43,319 bases of DNA from Oscillospiraceae bacterium. GTDB lineage: Bacteria > Bacillota > Clostridia > Oscillospirales > Acutalibacteraceae. The notes beneath the pieces are model-generated. The model ran no database searches. It was not told where the DNA came from and saw only the letters and a list, made by a program, of their open reading frames with translations. Location: contig CADBBT010000037.1 in NCBI GenBank assembly GCA_902792985.1, positions 1 through 43,319 of the forward strand. The letters are read 5' to 3'. Each line of letters opens with the position of its first letter. Position 1 is the stretch's first letter. Position numbers and translations under genes: made by a program. Below are positions 115-43,319 of the stretch, in pieces.

Positions 115-232
115 AGCCCGGCGGCGGGGCCGCGCACCGCAGGTGCGCGTGCCGCAGCAACAGGGACTGCACAATCGCGCAGTCCCTGTTGCTGCGTAAA
201 CGTGCTTTGCACGTTTGCCCCGCCGCCGGGCT
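115..232. repeat. cloverleaf palindromic element A
   Basis: A perfect 16-bp outer inverted repeat (115-130 with 217-232) encloses three perfect hairpins that fill almost all the space between: 131-138/142-149 (8 bp, 3-base loop), 154-170/179-195 (17 bp) and 198-205/209-216 (8 bp, TTT loop). As single-stranded DNA or RNA it would fold as a four-way junction. It lies downstream of the tlpA-like gene, beyond its terminator. The 12-mer TTTGCCCCGCCG in the right part (215-226) recurs at 22025-22036 in element B. It has no coding potential. Confidence 0.85.
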
Positions 233-16019: not shown

Positions 16020-19000
16020 ATGAACAAAAGCAAAGCGATTGCTTTGAAAGTACGCTGCAAATTTGCGGCGCTGCTTTGCGTTGTCATGCTGCTGACCTCT
16101 CTGCTGCCGACCTTCTCCGTTGCTTTTGCGGCCGACCGGCGCACGCGCAGCACCGTTTGCACGGACGCGCAGGGCAACCGCTATGCCGTTTCGGTACGCT
16201 ACACCTCCGCCGCGATGATCCCCGATGACGCGGAGCTGACCGTGCGCGAGATCTCGCCGGATGAGGATGCGTATCAGACCTATCTTGAACACACCGAAGC
16301 CGTGCTTTGCGACAAAAACGAATCGGTCAATTCCGCGCGCTTTTTGGATATCAGCCTGGTTTCCCGTGAGAACCCGAACGTGCAGTATCAGCCGGCGGAC
16401 GGCGCAAAGGTGCAGGTGCACATTCAACTGGAAACTGCGCCGCAGTGCGAGCTGAGCGTTGTCCACTTTGCCGAAGAAGCGCCGCCCGAGGTGCTCAGCA
16501 ACACCGTAAAAGGCGACACACTGCAGTTTGAAACCACCGGATTTTCCGTCTACGCGATCGTGGATGCGCCGGAGAGCAACAACACCAATTTCGGCGATGT
16601 GGAGACCGAAGCTACCGGCCTTGACGGCAGCGGTTTCTATTTGGGCGCAGGCAAGTCCGAAAGGGTTCTTTACTGGATGCGCACCGGCACTGTACGTACC
16701 AGCAACGCCGGCGTCGTGATCAACCGTACCGTTGCAAATGATCCGACGTTGGCTGAAATGTATTATTTCCAGCGCGTTCCCGGAGATCAGGAACAGTATT
16801 ACCTTTACTATAAAGATGATCAGGGCGGTTTCCACTATGTGAAGCTGACCGGTGAAACCAATGCGGAATTTGTTTCAAGTGCCGCAAACGCAACGGCGTT
16901 TAGCATTGAATCCTGCGGCTCTGACGGTCCGAACCGTTTCTACCTTTCTTTCAAGCAAGGCGGAACGACTTACTACCTCAATCTGCGTAAGGGCGACTCC
17001 GGCCAGGGCTTTTCCGGCTCAACCTTCGGTAAACCGCAAAAGGATAAGGGCAGTATGATCTATCTGTGCAAGCGTTTCACACAGGCGGACGATCCCTACG
17101 ATCTGGACGGTAAGACCACCGGCATCATCCTGATGAAGAACAGCACCGATTATAGTGTGATCGAACTGACGAATACTGCTTTGGACGATACCGCTTTGAC
17201 TGCAAAGGAACACCCGCTGAATGGAAATCCGCTGGATCCGGATCAAGCGCTGATCTATGCAGACGGCGATCTGTCGCAGTGGACGTTTGAATCTCTCGGT
17301 GGGAAAGACTATTATATGAAAACGACTGTCGGCGGCCAGACGAAATATCTGCGCTTGACAGAAACCGGCGCTTCGCTTGTGGACACACCGGATGACAACT
17401 GCAGAATTACCGTAGTGGCAGGCGCAGACAGCTTTGCAGGCAAATATTGGTTCTACAATGCTGCAAGCAGAAACTCCTTGGTGCTCGAAAACGGATCGAT
17501 CGCCAACGGCTTCGGCGCAACGACTTCTACCGGGTCGGCCAACGCCTGGTTCAAATTAGCCGATCTTTCCGTGCTTCAGGAAGATGACCTTGTCTCCTAT
17601 GTTGCGAAAAAAGTCAGCATCTCCGACCGCAGCCGCATCAAAAACGGCTCGAAGGTCGTGATCTACTACCGCATGTGGAACGAGAGCACCAAAAAATATG
17701 ATTTTTACGCGCTCGATCATGACGGTTCGCTCGTGTACTTGTATGATGAGGGTGACACGCTGCGTTGGACAGGCAGCCAGATCAACTCGCTGCTTTGGGA
17801 TTTCACCGAGTATTACTATTGGTTCACGAACATTCCCAACGGGTATTATGAGCTGCAAAATGAATATTCCGGCAAGTATCTTGCGCCGCAGATCAACGGC
17901 GGTCAGATCCTTTCCGATTCGCCGGTGGGTATCAACCTGACAGGCCGCCGCCACGGAGAAGTGGACTCCACCATCCTTGCGTGGGATAACCGCTACTATG
18001 ACTACGCCGCTCTGAAGACCGACGGCGACCATGTGGACTCTGTGCCGATGTCGCAGGGTGACCGGTTCTACTTTGCCGTGATGGACTATGATGCAGACAC
18101 GCTCCATGAAGTGGAAACGGTGGATAACACCGAATATGGCATCAAGATGAAGATGATCAAGTATCCGCGTGAACTAACTTACGCCAACAGCAGCAGCGGC
18201 GGCGGACGAAACCATCTGCAATCCGACGTTCTCGGTGAAGACACCGCCTACGTTTCGGAACTCAAATTACCGAGCAGGGATCTTGTGACGACCGATCTCA
18301 ATGAGAACGGCTATCCGGTTGCAACCCATACGGGCAGATCGCTTGAAGAGCTGTTTGGCAACGCAACCGACGCGAACCATCTGTTCTATCAGCAGGTATA
18401 TGATGAGAGCGGTTACTTTGAGTATAACAGTACGTTGACGTTTGCGTCCTACGACAATGTGGACGGAGACTTTACGGTTTATAATGAATTGTGCACGGCG
18501 GAAGTCAACACAAACAGCCAGGGACACAGCCAGTTCCTGCCCTATAACGAAATCGACACGTCAAGGATCTCGCAGTTTGTGAACATCTCCGACGTCTACA
18601 ATGTCCGCCTGCCGCTCAGCCATCCGCGCCGCGGCGAGCAGATGTACTCCATTCCTGTCAGAGAAACGAATTACCACTTCGGTATGGAGATGGAAGCGAG
18701 CTTTGTGCAGTCGCCCGATGGACTTGACGCCTGGGGACACGACCTGGTCTTTGAATTCGCCGGCGACGACGATATGTGGCTGTATGTTGACGGCGAGCTT
18801 GTGCTTGATCTCGGCGGTATCCATTCCGCTTTGGTCGGTAAGATCAACTTCCACACGGGTGAAGTTACCATTCCGTCCGACACCGTGATCGGCGGCAGCA
18901 CTTTGACCTCCATCAAAACCACAACGCTGCGTCAGTTGTTCAAGGAAAACTATCTCAAACGCAATCCCGACGCCACAGCGGATGAAGTGAACGAGTATCT

Positions 19001-21977
19001 CGATCACTACTTTGAAGACGGCGGCACCGTGTTCAAGAGCTACACGGCGCACACGATGAAGATGTTCTACATGGAGCGCGGCGCAGGTGCGTCGAACCTG
19101 ATCATGCGCTTCAACCTGAGCACTATGAGCAACGGTCAGCTTCTGCTTGGCAAAGAGGTTTCCGGCACCGATAAGCAGGATTACGCCAGCGCGGTCTTCC
19201 CGTTCCAGATCTACTACTGGGATCCGAATTATACCGAAGGCGACGAGACCGGCAGCGGCGACGGAACCGAAACAGGCGACGAGACCGGCAGCGGCGACGG
19301 AACCGAAACAGGCGGTGAGACCGGCAGCGGCGACGGAACCGAAACAGGCGGTGAGACCGGCACAGGCGGCGAAACCGGAACGGGCGGCGAAACCGGAGAC
19401 GGTGACGATTCGCAGACGACCACGGGCGCATGGCGGCTGGTTACGCGGCTGCAGGAGCTGCAGGGCAGTGACATCTACTCCTACCTCGGCGCCACATCCG
19501 TGAACTATGAAAACACCAACACGCCGGTGGCGTACGCAGACACCTATGAGGCGGCGCCGAACGTGGTCTATGATAACGTGTTCTTCCTCAAGCCCGGCGA
19601 GCGGGCAGATATCCACTTCCCGAGCGATGAGACACAGTACCGCATTCAGGAATGCGCTGTTAACGGCAGCATTTACGACCAGGTCAAGAGCAATGACACG
19701 ATTTTGCTTGCCAACAACGTGGAAGGAACCACACTTTCGGATTATATCACCGATCCCGATGTGGTCGGTCAGCGCAAGGTCGTGAAATTTGATAACCATG
19801 TCAGCGAAAACGCACTGCGCACGCTGCTTGTGACCAAGAGACTCTATGACGAGCAGGGCAGAGAACTGACGCGCGCAGAGGATGACACAGGGTTCAAGTT
19901 CCGTATGTATATCGGAAACGAGGACAGCTTCGATGATCTGAACTATTACAGTCTGGACAGCTATTATGTCAAGGACCCGAACGGCTGCTACTGCATTTTC
20001 GATCCGGACGACGGCTTTGTTTCGACCGGCGAGACAGACCTCGAGGAGCTTTCCGAAACGCAAAAAGCGAGAGCGACCTTCAACACCTCGCCCTCCGGCG
20101 CGATCGATCTGATCCCCGCGCAGTACAGCATCGAGATCCGCAATCTGCTGATCGGTACGAAATTCAAGGTGATCGAGCAGACCTCCGATATTCCGCATGG
20201 TTATGACTTTGTGGAATATGAGCGTGACGGCAACTCCTATATTTCCGAAGAAGAGCCGAACATGGGTACCATCCGCGACATCAACAACCCGCATGTCACG
20301 GTGAAAAACTGCCGCGGCTGGGGTCTGACCGTTGAAAAGAGCTGGTCCGACGATTCCTTTATGGCGTCGCATGACAATATCTATTTCGCGGTTTATTGCA
20401 ACGGCGTGCTGTTGCCCGATACCGTGCGGCGGATGCACACCGAGGTCAACGCGGAGTATCCGGGCGGTGAAAACTCGATCTACTACTTCTTCAAGCAATT
20501 GCAGGAGAATACGACCTTCAGCGACTACACGGTGCGCGAGGTCCTGCTTGAAAACCCGGTCGTAGATACAACCGGCAAGGTGACAAGCTACGACAGCATT
20601 ACGCCGCTGGCCGAAAACGGCACACTGCCCAACGAAGGCGGCGTGCTTGCGGAAGACCAGTCGCGTGTATCGTATAATTACTCGGTGCATTACAATCCCG
20701 GCACACCGACACAGGATACGCCGAATGTGCGTACCGACAAGGTGAACAACGATCGTCCCGGTTTGCGCATTGTGAAGACCGATATGAACGGTGTTCCGCT
20801 GGAAAACGCGACCTTCACACTGACCGAATCCGGGGAATCCGTCGGCGCCAACGCCTATGTTTCCGGCAGTGACGGCCTTGTGACGATCGCCTACCTGAAC
20901 AAGAACACACCTTACACACTGACTGAAACAGCGGCGCCGCAAAACTACATTGCGCTGATGGATCAGATCACGCTCACGATCGACAACAATGATATCGTGA
21001 CGGTTGGCAATGCGCCGGCGGGTGATATTGTGACGGTGGATTATAACGATCCTTCGGGCATGACCACGGTCAAGATCAAGAACAGTCCGACGGGATTCAA
21101 ATTCGAAAAAGTGACGGCGGAAACGGATCAAAGCGGTGTCCACACGCCGCTGAGCGGCGCGCACTTTGCGTTGTATCCCGAGGTCACGGCCTATGACGGG
21201 ACAAAGCGTAAGAACTACTATCCCGTGACCGGATATGACGATATCGTTTCCAACGCGACCGGCGAGCTGCCCGACTTGATAAATGCATTGACGCCAGGCT
21301 CCTACTATTACCTCACGGAAACGCAGGCGCCCGCGAATTACATGCAGCTTACTGGCGATATTCGGTTTGCGATCAATGAACGCGGTGAGTTGGTCATTGA
21401 TGACGAGAGCTACGCCGCATGGCTGACTACGACCACAGAAAACGGCACGCTCGTGCAGACGTTCAGCATTCAAAATGAACGCCTGGAGCAGATCATGATC
21501 TTTAAGAAGGACAGCAAAACGGGCACAGCGTTGGCCGGTGCGGAATTTGCGCTTTACGCGGCTGCGGATTTCGACGATTCAACAGACACACCGCTGGCAG
21601 ATGCAGAACCGGTGAGAACCGGAGAAACCGGCAGCAACGGTCTGCTTCCGCTGGGCAATCTGCCACGCGGCAGTTATCGGCTTGTGGAAACAAAAGCGCC
21701 GTTGGGCTACTTTGCACCGGAACATGCCCTGCCCATTGAAGTGACCGAGAACAGCATCACGATCACGCAGAACGGCGTAACGAGAACGGCGACCACAGGC
21801 ACAGGCGGTGCGCGCATCCTTGATGTTACAAACGTCTTGGCAATTGAGCTTCCCGCAACCGGCGGGTCGGGTCCGTGGTTGATCTATGCAGGCGGCTTCT
21901 TCCTGCTGTTGATCGTTGGCGCGGCGCTGATCTGGCTGCGCAGAAGACGCACAGCCGAAGGCGTACAAGCAGTGTAA
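16020..21977 (+). CDS. giant fibro-slime/CnaB surface adhesin, likely pilus tip (LPATG)
   Basis: A 1985-residue exported protein. The signal peptide ends near residue 38 (SVAFAAD). The large N-terminal half has no domain I can name. A fibro-slime domain lies at about 855-950, marked by FEFAGDDDMWLYVDGELVLDLGG. An acidic Gly/Thr repeat (about 1074-1128) is a flexible linker. At least three C-terminal CnaB/SpaA domains start near 1581, 1691 and 1823, each with its E-box (TETAAPQNY, TETQAPANY, VETKAPLGY) for isopeptide bonds. LPATG is at 1944-1948, then a helix and RRRR. RBS GGGAGGT with 8-base spacing. Last gene of the pilus locus and followed by a terminator. Size and domain order suit the tip subunit that binds host or food ligands. 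Confidence 0.88.
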   Translation: MNKSKAIALKVRCKFAALLCVVMLLTSLLPTFSVAFAADRRTRSTVCTDAQGNRYAVSVRYTSAAMIPDDAELTVREISPDEDAYQTYLEHTEAVLCDKNESVNSARFLDISLVSRENPNVQYQPADGAKVQVHIQLETAPQCELSVVHFAEEAPPEVLSNTVKGDTLQFETTGFSVYAIVDAPESNNTNFGDVETEATGLDGSGFYLGAGKSERVLYWMRTGTVRTSNAGVVINRTVANDPTLAEMYYFQRVPGDQEQYYLYYKDDQGGFHYVKLTGETNAEFVSSAANATAFSIESCGSDGPNRFYLSFKQGGTTYYLNLRKGDSGQGFSGSTFGKPQKDKGSMIYLCKRFTQADDPYDLDGKTTGIILMKNSTDYSVIELTNTALDDTALTAKEHPLNGNPLDPDQALIYADGDLSQWTFESLGGKDYYMKTTVGGQTKYLRLTETGASLVDTPDDNCRITVVAGADSFAGKYWFYNAASRNSLVLENGSIANGFGATTSTGSANAWFKLADLSVLQEDDLVSYVAKKVSISDRSRIKNGSKVVIYYRMWNESTKKYDFYALDHDGSLVYLYDEGDTLRWTGSQINSLLWDFTEYYYWFTNIPNGYYELQNEYSGKYLAPQINGGQILSDSPVGINLTGRRHGEVDSTILAWDNRYYDYAALKTDGDHVDSVPMSQGDRFYFAVMDYDADTLHEVETVDNTEYGIKMKMIKYPRELTYANSSSGGGRNHLQSDVLGEDTAYVSELKLPSRDLVTTDLNENGYPVATHTGRSLEELFGNATDANHLFYQQVYDESGYFEYNSTLTFASYDNVDGDFTVYNELCTAEVNTNSQGHSQFLPYNEIDTSRISQFVNISDVYNVRLPLSHPRRGEQMYSIPVRETNYHFGMEMEASFVQSPDGLDAWGHDLVFEFAGDDDMWLYVDGELVLDLGGIHSALVGKINFHTGEVTIPSDTVIGGSTLTSIKTTTLRQLFKENYLKRNPDATADEVNEYLDHYFEDGGTVFKSYTAHTMKMFYMERGAGASNLIMRFNLSTMSNGQLLLGKEVSGTDKQDYASAVFPFQIYYWDPNYTEGDETGSGDGTETGDETGSGDGTETGGETGSGDGTETGGETGTGGETGTGGETGDGDDSQTTTGAWRLVTRLQELQGSDIYSYLGATSVNYENTNTPVAYADTYEAAPNVVYDNVFFLKPGERADIHFPSDETQYRIQECAVNGSIYDQVKSNDTILLANNVEGTTLSDYITDPDVVGQRKVVKFDNHVSENALRTLLVTKRLYDEQGRELTRAEDDTGFKFRMYIGNEDSFDDLNYYSLDSYYVKDPNGCYCIFDPDDGFVSTGETDLEELSETQKARATFNTSPSGAIDLIPAQYSIEIRNLLIGTKFKVIEQTSDIPHGYDFVEYERDGNSYISEEEPNMGTIRDINNPHVTVKNCRGWGLTVEKSWSDDSFMASHDNIYFAVYCNGVLLPDTVRRMHTEVNAEYPGGENSIYYFFKQLQENTTFSDYTVREVLLENPVVDTTGKVTSYDSITPLAENGTLPNEGGVLAEDQSRVSYNYSVHYNPGTPTQDTPNVRTDKVNNDRPGLRIVKTDMNGVPLENATFTLTESGESVGANAYVSGSDGLVTIAYLNKNTPYTLTETAAPQNYIALMDQITLTIDNNDIVTVGNAPAGDIVTVDYNDPSGMTTVKIKNSPTGFKFEKVTAETDQSGVHTPLSGAHFALYPEVTAYDGTKRKNYYPVTGYDDIVSNATGELPDLINALTPGSYYYLTETQAPANYMQLTGDIRFAINERGELVIDDESYAAWLTTTTENGTLVQTFSIQNERLEQIMIFKKDSKTGTALAGAEFALYAAADFDDSTDTPLADAEPVRTGETGSNGLLPLGNLPRGSYRLVETKAPLGYFAPEHALPIEVTENSITITQNGVTRTATTGTGGARILDVTNVLAIELPATGGSGPWLIYAGGFFLLLIVGAALIWLRRRRTAEGVQAV
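19239..19400 (+). repeat. in-gene repeats of the tip adhesin linker
   Basis: Three nearly identical 36-base units (19239-19274, 19275-19310, 19311-19346) code G(D/G)ETGSGDGTET, then shorter GGETGT units continue to about 19400. A low-complexity acidic linker between the fibro-slime part and the C-terminal stalk; likely length-variable. Confidence 0.85.
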
Positions 21978-21991
21978 AAAAACACAAAAAG

Positions 21992-22027
21992 AAACCGGAA
22001 CACGGCATCGGCTGCGTTCCGGTTTTT
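21992..22027 (+). terminator. terminator of the pilus operon
   Basis: A 10-bp stem (21992-22001 with 22016-22025) ends in TTTTT (22023-22027), 15 bases past the adhesin stop. Its right edge merges with palindromic element B. Confidence 0.85.
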
Positions 22028-22246
22028 GCCCCGCCGCGCCGCAGCTTTGCTGCGGCGCGGCACACGCGGGCGAGACGACACCAGGCGGCGCTTCCAAAGG
22101 AAGCGCCGCCTGGTGCGCCCGGGGCACAGCGGACGTGTGACTGAAAAAAACGCTTTTTTTGCGCCCCGGGCGGCCGCGCGCAGCGCGGGTCGTCTCGCCC
22201 GCGTGTGCCGGACAGCTTCCCAAAGGGAAGCTGTCCGGCGGGGCAA
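22026..22246. repeat. nested cloverleaf palindromic element B
   Basis: A 10-bp outer stem (22026-22035 with 22237-22246) encloses three branches: hairpin 22036-22045/22049-22058; a perfect 19-bp stem (22061-22079 with 22189-22207); and hairpin 22208-22221/22225-22238 (14 bp, AAA loop). The 19-bp stem itself encloses three more hairpins: 22080-22095/22099-22114 (16 bp, AAA loop), 22117-22125/22163-22171 and 22174-22179/22183-22188. The whole stretch between the convergent adhesin and gtrA-like genes is this one structure. Confidence 0.88.
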
Positions 22247-22298: not shown

Positions 22299-22841
22299 TT
22301 ATGCTTCTTCCTTTTCTTCCTTCGGCTTGCGGAAAAGGATCTTGTCGACCGGGAAATACAGGAAGAACTGGATCGCGGAGCAGATCATCGTTGCGGTGTT
22401 GGCAGCAAGGTCGTCGCCCCAGCCGTGACCGATGAACACGTTTTTCAGCGTCGGGTTCAGCCACGCGGAAAACGCGATGAGCGCGATGGTGAAGACGATG
22501 TAGATTGGCAGCGTCACCGCGATGTTCGCGCTGGAATTGAACGTCTTTTCACGGTTGACAAAGAAAGAGACGATCTGCGCGGCGATGTTCGCGGTGTTGT
22601 TGACGATAAAGTAGCCCAGACCGCCGATGGCTGCCGGACAGAAGAACACCCACCAGCGGAAGTCCTGCCCGTTGGCATAGAGCTCCTGGATCGGCGGCAG
22701 GAGCTTCAGCAGATTCAGCAGCGCAAACTGCACGATCATGGCCAGCAGACTGACGACGATGAATTTGACGAACTGCCAGATGGTGGTCAGGACAGAGCCT
22801 TTTTCAGCGGCTTTGGAGTCGATGTCTTTGAGTTTTGCCAT
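22299..22841 (-). CDS. GtrA-like membrane protein
   Basis: 180 residues with four hydrophobic segments (about 20-48, 75-98, 108-128 and 145-165), matching the GtrA family in size and topology. The NREKTF-type motif (SFFVNREKTFNS) between helices two and three is characteristic. GtrA-like proteins are linked to flipping or transfer of lipid-bound sugars to wall polymers. It is the last gene of a leftward set behind the alpha/beta hydrolase, 41 bases apart, with an AGGTGA ribosome binding site. The C-terminal KPKEEKEE tail is cytoplasmic. Confidence 0.85.
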   Translation of the reverse strand: MAKLKDIDSKAAEKGSVLTTIWQFVKFIVVSLLAMIVQFALLNLLKLLPPIQELYANGQDFRWWVFFCPAAIGGLGYFIVNNTANIAAQIVSFFVNREKTFNSSANIAVTLPIYIVFTIALIAFSAWLNPTLKNVFIGHGWGDDLAANTATMICSAIQFFLYFPVDKILFRKPKEEKEEA

Positions 22842-27225: not shown

Positions 27226-27291
27226 GCTAACAGCTACCGACTACCGACTAACGACTATCAGCTAGCAGCTAACAGCTAACAGCTAACAGCT
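27226..27291. repeat. degenerate heptamer tandem repeat (GCTAACA) at the proS 3' end
   Basis: Runs of CTAACAG/CTACCGA/CTAACGA variants, ending in at least three exact GCTAACA copies, lie immediately past the proS stop (27293). A matching tract follows ileS at 28845-28868. Confidence 0.8.
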
Positions 27292-28844: not shown

Positions 28845-28868
28845 GCTAACAGCTAACAGCTAACAGCT
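28845..28868. repeat. GCTAACA heptamer repeats at the ileS 3' end
   Basis: Three exact GCTAACA units plus a partial one end 3 bases from the ileS stop codon (28872-28874). Same unit and same position relative to the stop as the tract at the end of proS. Confidence 0.85.
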
Positions 28869-41850: not shown

Positions 41851-41857
41851 TCCTCTT

Positions 41858-42011
41858 GCGCCGTTTTGCTTTTGCAAAACGGCGCACCGGCGGCGGGCGG
41901 CCGTCCGTGCAGCGCACGGACGAGCAGGGCGCTTTTGCGCCCTGCGCCCTGCGCCTTCGGCGCAGGGCCGCCCGCCGCCTGACGCTGCGCGGCAAAGCTT
42001 TGCCGCGCAGC
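41858..42011. repeat. cloverleaf palindromic cluster D
   Basis: Three adjoining parts: hairpin 41858-41869/41874-41885 (12 bp, TTTT loop); a 14-bp outer stem (41889-41902 with 41966-41979) that encloses three hairpins (41903-41910/41914-41921, 41924-41932/41937-41945, 41946-41955/41959-41968); and a perfect 28-bp palindrome (41984-42011). The middle part repeats the one-stem-three-hairpins plan of elements A and B. It begins only 8 bases after element C. Confidence 0.85.
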
Positions 42012-42291: not shown

Positions 42292-42460
42292 ATCAAAACC
42301 TATAATGCGGAATTATGCGCTGAGGAAAACTTCCTCTATAAGCATATTAGCATGGGCGGCGCAAAATGTCAAGAGATTTTTTGCAAAATCCCTGTCGGTG
42401 CCTGTCGCGGAAGCGGCGCGGCGGGTGCGGCAAATTTGAAAAATGGAGTGATTGGTTCAG

Positions 42461-43319
42461 ATGGTTAACGTAACCGAAGTGAAGCTCGGCACCACCACAA
42501 GAAAGAGCTTCGGAAAGATCAGCGAGGTCATGCAGATGCCCAACCTGATCCAGGTGCAGAAGGATTCCTACAAATGGTTCCTCGATGTCGGTCTGAAGGA
42601 AGTGCTCCGCGATATGGCGGACATTACCGACTACACCGGCAACCTCGTGCTTTCCTTTGTGGATTACCACATGGAGAAGCGTGCAAAGTACAGCGTGCGC
42701 GAATGCAAGGAGCGCGATGTTTCCTATTCGGCGCCCATGCGTGTGACGGCACGGCTGTATAACAAGGAGACAGGCGAAGTCAAGGAAAGCGACGTCTATA
42801 TGGGCGATTTCCCGCTCATGACGGAGTCCGGTACTTTCGTCATCAACGGCGCAGAGCGCGTCATCGTGTCGCAGCTTGTGCGTTCTCCGGGCGTGTACTA
42901 CGGCATGAGCCACAACATCACCGGCAAAAAACTGTTCACCACCACCATCATTCCCAACCGCGGCGCATGGCTTGAATATGAGACCGATCAGAACGATCTG
43001 TTCTTCGTGCGCATCGACAAAAACAGAAAGATCCCCATCACCACCTTCATCCGTGCGCTGGGTCTTTCCTCCAACAACGACATCCGTGAATTCTTCGGTC
43101 TGGATGACCGCATTGAAGCGACGCTGGAAAAAGACAGCACGCAGAACAGTGAGGAAGCGCTGATCGAAGTCTATAAAAAGCTGCGTCCGGGCGAACCGCC
43201 GACACTGGCGAGCGCACAGAGCCATCTGGAAGGCCTGTTCTTTGAAGATCGCCGCTACGATCTTTCCCGTGTGGGCCGCTATAAATACAACAAAAAGCTC
43301 GGCATCGCCGAACGTATTC
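42461..43319 (+). CDS. rpoB: RNA polymerase beta subunit, N-terminal part
   Basis: The first 286 codons of rpoB; the gene runs off the right edge. [20 protein letters not shown], then [53 protein letters not shown] and [14 protein letters not shown] are the conserved beta-subunit N-terminal and lobe sequences. Start ATG 42461 has GGAG at 42445-42448, a rather long 12-base spacing. rplJ/rplL, which usually precede rpoB, are absent; instead rpoB has its own promoter and terminator-isolated leader. Confidence 0.97.

Follow-up and report, generated by a model that had tools for sequence, protein, structure and literature searches.

Three elements in the 43,319-nucleotide stretch of Oscillospiraceae DNA that we analysed (the window) are, on balance, probably copies of one lineage-specific, non-autonomous, palindromic mobile repeat, whose movement we infer. 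Our observations cover its fold, its family, its distribution, its context and its pattern of change; an enzyme, movement and excision lie outside that set. The comparison took in 34 congeneric genomes, including the window's own (G000) and two metagenome-assembled relatives, RUG11928 (G004), which we take to be from cattle rumen, and RGIG3704 (G028), from goat rumen.

Element A (115-232, no strand assigned to this or the following elements) has no flanking hairpins and is formed by an outer stem, 115-130 paired with 217-232, round three hairpins. A preliminary description made from the window alone had proposed this plan of a perfect outer stem and three perfect hairpins, and folding bore it out, with an energy of −109.5 kcal/mol as compared with −64.0 ± 3.7 for shuffled sequences (n=200, z −12.2), none of the 200 being as low. 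The outer arms are of 16 bp, as proposed, and the hairpins lie at 131-149 (8 bp, loop 3), 153-196 (18 bp, where 17 had been given, loop 8) and 198-216 (8 bp, loop 3). The stem of the third hairpin, AAACGTGC, recurs in a G004 cloverleaf adjoining the orthologous gene. A terminator-like hairpin at 252-279 belongs to the adjoining minus-strand gene and lies outside the element. The covariance model described below (R1) matched element A at 118-229 with 53.8 bits.

The same plan had been claimed for two further sites and was present at both, with more structure than described. Element B (22027-22245, z −18.3 against shuffles) is a cloverleaf within a cloverleaf, with two nested levels and a middle branch that is itself a cloverleaf. 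A 9-bp outermost stem (22027-22035/22237-22245) encloses a left hairpin at 22036-22058 (10 bp in the fold, up to 13 bp at 22033-22061 if it takes its neighbours' bases), an inner cloverleaf at 22059-22209 and a 12-bp right hairpin at 22210-22236, which in G028 is one matched base pair shorter, the G028 contig beginning inside the element. The inner cloverleaf has a perfect 21-bp stem (22059-22079/22189-22209) and branches at 22080-22114, 22116-22172 (with a 37-nt loop) and 22174-22188; the R1 match to element B was weak (22064-22204, 29.9 bits, E 0.098). Element B lies between the convergent genes 16020-21977(+) and 22299-22841(−). Element C, upstream of rpoB, extends over at least 41857-42011 (z −14.3), its cloverleaf being flanked by a further perfect hairpin on either side (41857-41886 and 41984-42011), and its fold adds a 7-bp outermost stem (41848-41854/42012-42018). 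The core cloverleaf (41889-41979) has an outer stem of 11 bp in the fold, or 14 bp if bases of the third hairpin are used, and hairpins at 41902-41922, 41924-41945 and 41946-41968.

The 12-mer TTTGCCCCGCCG, reported as common to the three copies, is present in two and absent from element C. It occurs only 6 times in the whole genome and was rejected as the family signature; at most it marks a subfamily. Its occurrences in contigs C4 and C5 fell one inside and one outside a locus of the model.

Other features of the window were recorded separately. The gene 16020-21977 encodes 1985 aa with SpaA prealbumin-fold domains and has 18-bp-spaced repeats at 19238-19417; a search of viral contigs with this protein found no relative and has no bearing on the element. 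The ORF 42347-43225(−) is antisense to the start of rpoB (42452-43318, +), and the in-frame TGA codons in its homologues were dismissed as an artefact of this. GCTAACA simple repeats occur at 27226-27291 and 28845-28868.

Family structure, distribution and genomic setting

Fifteen cores from G000 and G004 aligned with a common outer stem, GGCGGCGGRAC/GTYCCGCCGCC, which by sequence comparison is the family signature, a first hairpin round CGCGCRG, a variable middle arm and a third hairpin round CGTGC. These cores were used to build R1. The search for further copies that had been proposed as a check returned dozens in three genomes, with 64 matches in G000, 54 in G028 and 86 in G004 among the best 123 candidates of each genome, both strands being counted so that copies matching on both count twice. 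The best 123 candidates were likewise scored in non-carriers with thousands of first-look candidates. At E up to 0.1, 92 loci could be placed in the sampled DNA (47 in G000, 27 in G028 and 18 in G004).

A strict, model-free detector was run on 770 kb of G000, 330 kb of G028 and 312 kb of G004, DNA partly chosen because copies were present, and found 13, 7 and 9 cloverleaves, respectively. Third-order Markov shuffles, three for each carrier's DNA, gave none, in line with the earlier view that chance is excluded. All 29 had exactly three inner hairpins. The same detector found none in 160 kb of G001 or 100 kb of G002, and two weak two-hairpin hits in 140 kb of G019. G000 contigs C4-C6 (396 kb) hold 12 copies, which extrapolates to about 79 per genome. 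Many similar non-coding copies at unlinked sites, the mark of dispersed palindromic repeats in general, were present in these genomes.

Among the 92 loci, flanking hairpins were found on both sides in 51, on one side in 25 and on neither in 16. The core measured 89-97 bp in 53 loci and at least 110 bp in 34. In this long form the middle arm encloses a loop, of 29-37 nt in 22 of 32 cases, and a model-free scan gave the same loop-length peak (19 of 68 arms, 65 of the 68 being within model loci); a further group near 63-78 nt in that scan probably represents outer stems. When aligned, the long-form loops had no apparent conserved motif. Folding of 22 loops (mean z −0.91 ± 0.38) showed decayed hairpins in some and not in others. 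Their best match outside elements in the sampled stretches was of 18 nt (E 4e-4), and one loop has 17 nt in common with hairpins of other copies. Examples of long-form cores are L198:2100-2225 and L180:10092-10214; at these orthologous loci the arms are for the most part conserved, and the loops do not look related. A single outermost stem round all full elements was considered and found not to be general, being seen in B, C and some G000 and G028 copies (GCGCTTT...AAAGCGC).

Some cloverleaves in G028 and G000 are joined to about 100-400 bp more of repeated non-coding DNA, forming composite repeats (beside elements at L167, L168, L169, L170, L171, L178, L188, L190 and L204). Contigs that start or end within 150 bp of a copy include the window itself (1-115) and G028 C66, C17, C24, C45 and C29.

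Of the other 31 congeners, 29 had no R1 match among the best 123 candidates per genome, and the remaining two had a single marginal one apiece (E 0.006-0.007). Judged by the identity of proteins at two loci, G028 (84% and 97%) and G004 (61% and 97%) are the nearest of the congeners, the next having 49% and 90%. G038, which ranks next after G028 and G004 by protein B (90% identity), had no R1 match among its best 123 candidates. Two wider scans under stricter filters, of 300 genomes from the family and 394 from the order, gave a match at E 1e-4 in G000 alone; they took at most the best 13 and 10 candidates per genome, a depth at which weak or rare copies would be missed, and the presence of G028 or G004 in the two samples is not evident from their lists. 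A DNA pattern scan of a collection of species genomes gave 36 stretches, 26 from RUG11928, 4 from RGIG3704 and six single hits in six unrelated organisms, which are probably due to chance. Viral contigs gave no match to the pattern, and a search of plasmids and phages with one G004 copy was likewise negative. Among the papers listed, none on such an element was found by title or start of abstract, in a search outside which most subscription journals and preprints lay.

On contigs C4-C6, with genes called by a simple codon-usage gene finder, 35 gaps were convergent, 163 tandem and 37 divergent, and elements occupied 10, 2 and none of these, respectively. The contigs are nearly, not fully, unselected: C4 and C5 had come up in a match to the 12-mer, and C6 because it holds a Y1 gene. 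Over all the sampled DNA, partly chosen for its elements, 76 copies could be classified (46 convergent, 26 tandem and 4 divergent), the other 16 of the 92 lying inside predicted ORFs (8) or at edges (8). The predicted ends of the genes on the two sides are often no more than about 100 bp away from the copy. The single GC-rich hairpin followed by a T-run that defines an intrinsic terminator was not what we found, the structure being multi-branch.

Stem and loop changes between copies

In the R1 alignment 17 of 34 pairs carried changes on both sides, and four of five measures of covariation exceeded all 500 shuffles (score 0.323 as compared with 0.128), in agreement with the earlier proposal that the architecture is kept while the letters of the stems change. 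The fifth measure, further pair types, gave 29 against 27.3 in shuffles and was reached by 144 of the 500. The structure also exceeded all slid controls.

Between orthologues, a strict count gave 7 double and 14 single stem changes as compared with 8 and 124 in control hairpins (Fisher p 0.001); singles thus still outnumber doubles in the strictest count. It used ten chosen syntenic pairs and left out L055/L169 (0.60 identical, with different forms), L043/L183 (0.78), the sites of A and B, and L188/L167 and L188/L168, where synteny was doubtful. The controls were 105 non-element hairpins, mostly chance ones, with 17 skipped for less than 60% aligned identity; nine were terminator-like, with 0 double and 5 single changes. 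Since most controls are chance hairpins, the surplus of double changes demonstrates that pairing is maintained and does not by itself distinguish selection from templating. Looser counts gave 17 double and 79 single changes with energy-folded flanks included, 13 and 33 from both species, and, with paralogous hits mixed in, 20 and 29 against G028 (control 8 and 124) and 18 and 18 against G004 (control 5 and 59). The inner stems were not decaying freely in this comparison between species, an outcome that had been named beforehand as one that would speak against the proposal; the other outcome so named, a lack of further copies, did not occur either.

The loops were altered in 15 of 33 shared hairpins, and 5 of the 15 were the exact reverse complement of their counterpart, as compared with none of 43 changed loops in the controls (p 0.0007). 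Concerted stem changes and loop inversion, the signs of a hairpin maintained by template switching, were therefore both in excess of the controls, which are mostly chance hairpins. Summed from the strict count, stem bases differed at only about 3.5%, while the BLAST identity of the flanks of syntenic pairs was mostly 80-98%; this contrast suggests that a sequence constraint or recent conversion probably acts on the stems beyond pairing.

We weighed these data against the possibility that the element acts as RNA, as a bidirectional 3'-end structure (a terminator, read-through insulator or exonuclease block) between converging transcripts that is selected for RNA folding. The very large folding energies, the strong preference for convergent gaps and the frequent position within about 100 bp of both predicted gene ends would suit such a role. 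However, both genes flanking element B already have terminator-like hairpins of their own, one on either side of the element, and 31 congeners do without convincing copies. Wobble pairs were not favoured: G·U made up 7 of 39 non-Watson-Crick cells in the pair table, close to the expectation for random mismatches (2 of 12 types), and in orthologues 2 of 14 single changes were to G·T as compared with 38 of 124 in control hairpins. Loop inversion, moreover, is a DNA event. Neither a curated family match nor wobble-tolerant covariation was found: Rfam gave no match at the gathering score in the window except a tRNA, and its 21 matches in L034:3700-4200 were all below that score (best ncS011, E 1.8e-5, 28.5 of 48 bits). 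We therefore regard a role as RNA as unlikely. With wobble no more favoured than other mismatches, and with loops inverting, the pattern of change points to DNA folding, with one arm templating the other, over structured RNA. The preliminary description had held that structure is kept, as RNA or as single-stranded DNA; the first part stands, and on the choice it left open the evidence favours DNA.

Palindromes might also be made and perfected in place by template switching and amplified by ordinary recombination, with neither transposition nor function. Matched-pair changes together with inverted loops are the footprint of template switching during DNA replication, as set out in the part of PMC8794818 drawn on here. 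By itself, however, such mutation yields neither a shared outer stem nor a fixed three-hairpin plan across many contigs and dozens of sites, nor does it explain the restriction to three of 34 congeneric genomes, and we consider it a decidedly unlikely account of the family.

Copying, turnover and candidate mobilisers

Core pairs at least 90% identical numbered 33 of 1081 in G000, 24 of 351 in G028 and 1 of 153 in G004, with top paralogue identities of 0.97, 0.99 and 0.91, respectively. Fourteen G028 elements had both flanks in the sampled G000 DNA; 11 of these sites were occupied there (one spanning two G000 copies) and 3 were not (one of them a weak model match). The G000 copies at L187:6621 and L204:12270 have no listed counterpart in G028. 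Beside gene 289-849 a cloverleaf is present in G000 and G004, not in G028, the site being comparable on one side only in G000, where the contig starts. At one orthologous site the forms differ between the two species (identity 0.60). Divergence of the intergenic flanks meant that no empty site with clean boundaries could be obtained.

Conserved occupancy of many sites between G000 and G028, the convergent location and the slight change in orthologue stems would also be expected of a chromosomal site that serves the host, such as a DNA-binding or supercoiling (gyrase-like) site between converging genes that is selected for its cruciform. The differences in occupancy between species and the lack of a match in G038 among its best 123 candidates argue against this, and we hold it to be improbable. 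That the elements are an artefact of assembling or sequencing metagenome-assembled genomes is already refuted and can hardly be credited, despite the several contigs that start or end within 150 bp of a copy, by orthologous copies in three distinct assemblies, two of which belong to different accession series.

Returning to a mobile repeat, we looked for signs of how it might move. The best direct-repeat score at the ends of 51 elements averaged 5.51 as compared with 5.70 for permuted pairings, and the target-site duplication of MITEs was not seen. Inverted flanks scored 5.27 against 4.67 over 18 nt, above all 50 permutations, and 6.67 against 6.20 over 45 nt, below the highest of 40 permutations (6.75). 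Neither a parent transposon nor a mobilising gene was found for the family. The link to RAYT-like transposases that had been suggested did not hold: Y1_Tnp is found not only in carriers but also in such non-carriers as G001, G010, G012, G022 and G025, and Y1 genes do not track the family, for which reason RAYT/IS200 was rejected as its driver. The GTAG/CGTC tag was absent from all 102 flanks (6 nt outside each terminal hairpin of the 51 elements, among the 92, with both flanking hairpins, the inner hairpins not being included). Among the matches listed, the shortest distance from a Y1 gene to an R1 match was about 2.4 kb (G000 C6); a Y1 gene flanked by the repeat, with correlated abundance, as in REP/RAYT systems, was not found. 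Two Y1 proteins of G000 are presumably of the ordinary IS200 type, by sequence resemblance. A RAYT-like protein (Y1 transposase-like gene) in G004 adjoins an unrelated palindrome with 26-bp arms (L030:649-704), which is possibly an ordinary RAYT-repeat unit.

In bacteria, DNA with long perfect palindromes is as a rule unstable, and SbcD is a subunit of the hairpin nuclease SbcCD. NCBIfam SbcD was above the cut-off in 2 of 34 genomes (G002 and G007) and in none of the three carriers, weak partial hits leaving room for divergent SbcD proteins. Its absence above the cut-off may allow long palindromes to survive; as it is missing from most non-carriers too, it cannot explain who carries the family.

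We propose that the element would fold into a four-way-junction cloverleaf on single-stranded (lagging-strand) or supercoil-extruded DNA, and that a structure-recognising enzyme supplied in trans would copy or move it. Insertions would survive mainly where no promoter is hit, past the ends of two converging genes. During replication, polymerase on the folded element could switch template onto the opposite arm, re-making perfect stems and flipping loops, and the fold would persist although its letters change. The background of a genus mostly lacking SbcD above the cut-off may be permissive for such palindromes. More tentatively, and as a possibility that we rather doubt, the mobile element might be defined by its DNA fold, not by terminal sequences: a structure-specific enzyme would recognise the four-way-junction cloverleaf, stems could be rewritten arm from arm and middle branches exchanged with the element still movable, and in long-form copies the middle arm would hold a variable cargo whose length is nearly constant (29-37 nt).

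Relation to known repeats

A genome with dozens of nested palindromes is a natural experiment in tolerating, maintaining and spreading such DNA. The orthologous copies in three species allow the co-evolution of hairpin arms, by selection or templated repair, to be measured directly, and since contigs often end at copies, the elements may affect the recovery of genomes from metagenomes. MITE-type repeats have terminal inverted repeats round one body. Like the cloverleaf, MITEs, ERIC and bcr1 are non-coding intergenic repeats with a shared fold (PMC2267715, drawn on in part); the cloverleaf differs in having several perfect hairpins in a multi-branch structure, with no target-site duplication or parent transposon found.

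The compensatory stem changes and loop inversion of template-switch hairpins are the same as in the cloverleaf, although the mechanism in the portion of PMC8794818 used here is one of mutation in RNA genes, and in the cloverleaf it would act repeatedly on a dispersed DNA repeat. REP, BIME and REPIN sequences and their RAYTs are likewise dispersed, intergenic, lineage-specific palindromes, often in higher-order hairpin arrays (PMC2817692 and PMC3733652, each consulted in part). They have 20-40-bp units with a GTAG/CGTC tag, whereas the cloverleaf has a nested multi-hairpin plan and untagged flanks, and no listed copy of it flanks a Y1 gene. The GC clusters of yeast mitochondria, as described in part of PMC4478555, are also short, GC-rich, palindromic, non-coding and mostly intergenic, with fast turnover and constrained structure, and merging and shuffling of palindromes is reported for them. 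In contrast to these clusters, the cloverleaf is bacterial, longer and of fixed plan, and no counterpart was found to the AG target nucleotides given in that part of the source. The best reading is that the cloverleaf is a dispersed palindrome like the REP/BIME or GC-cluster repeats, but with a new architecture.
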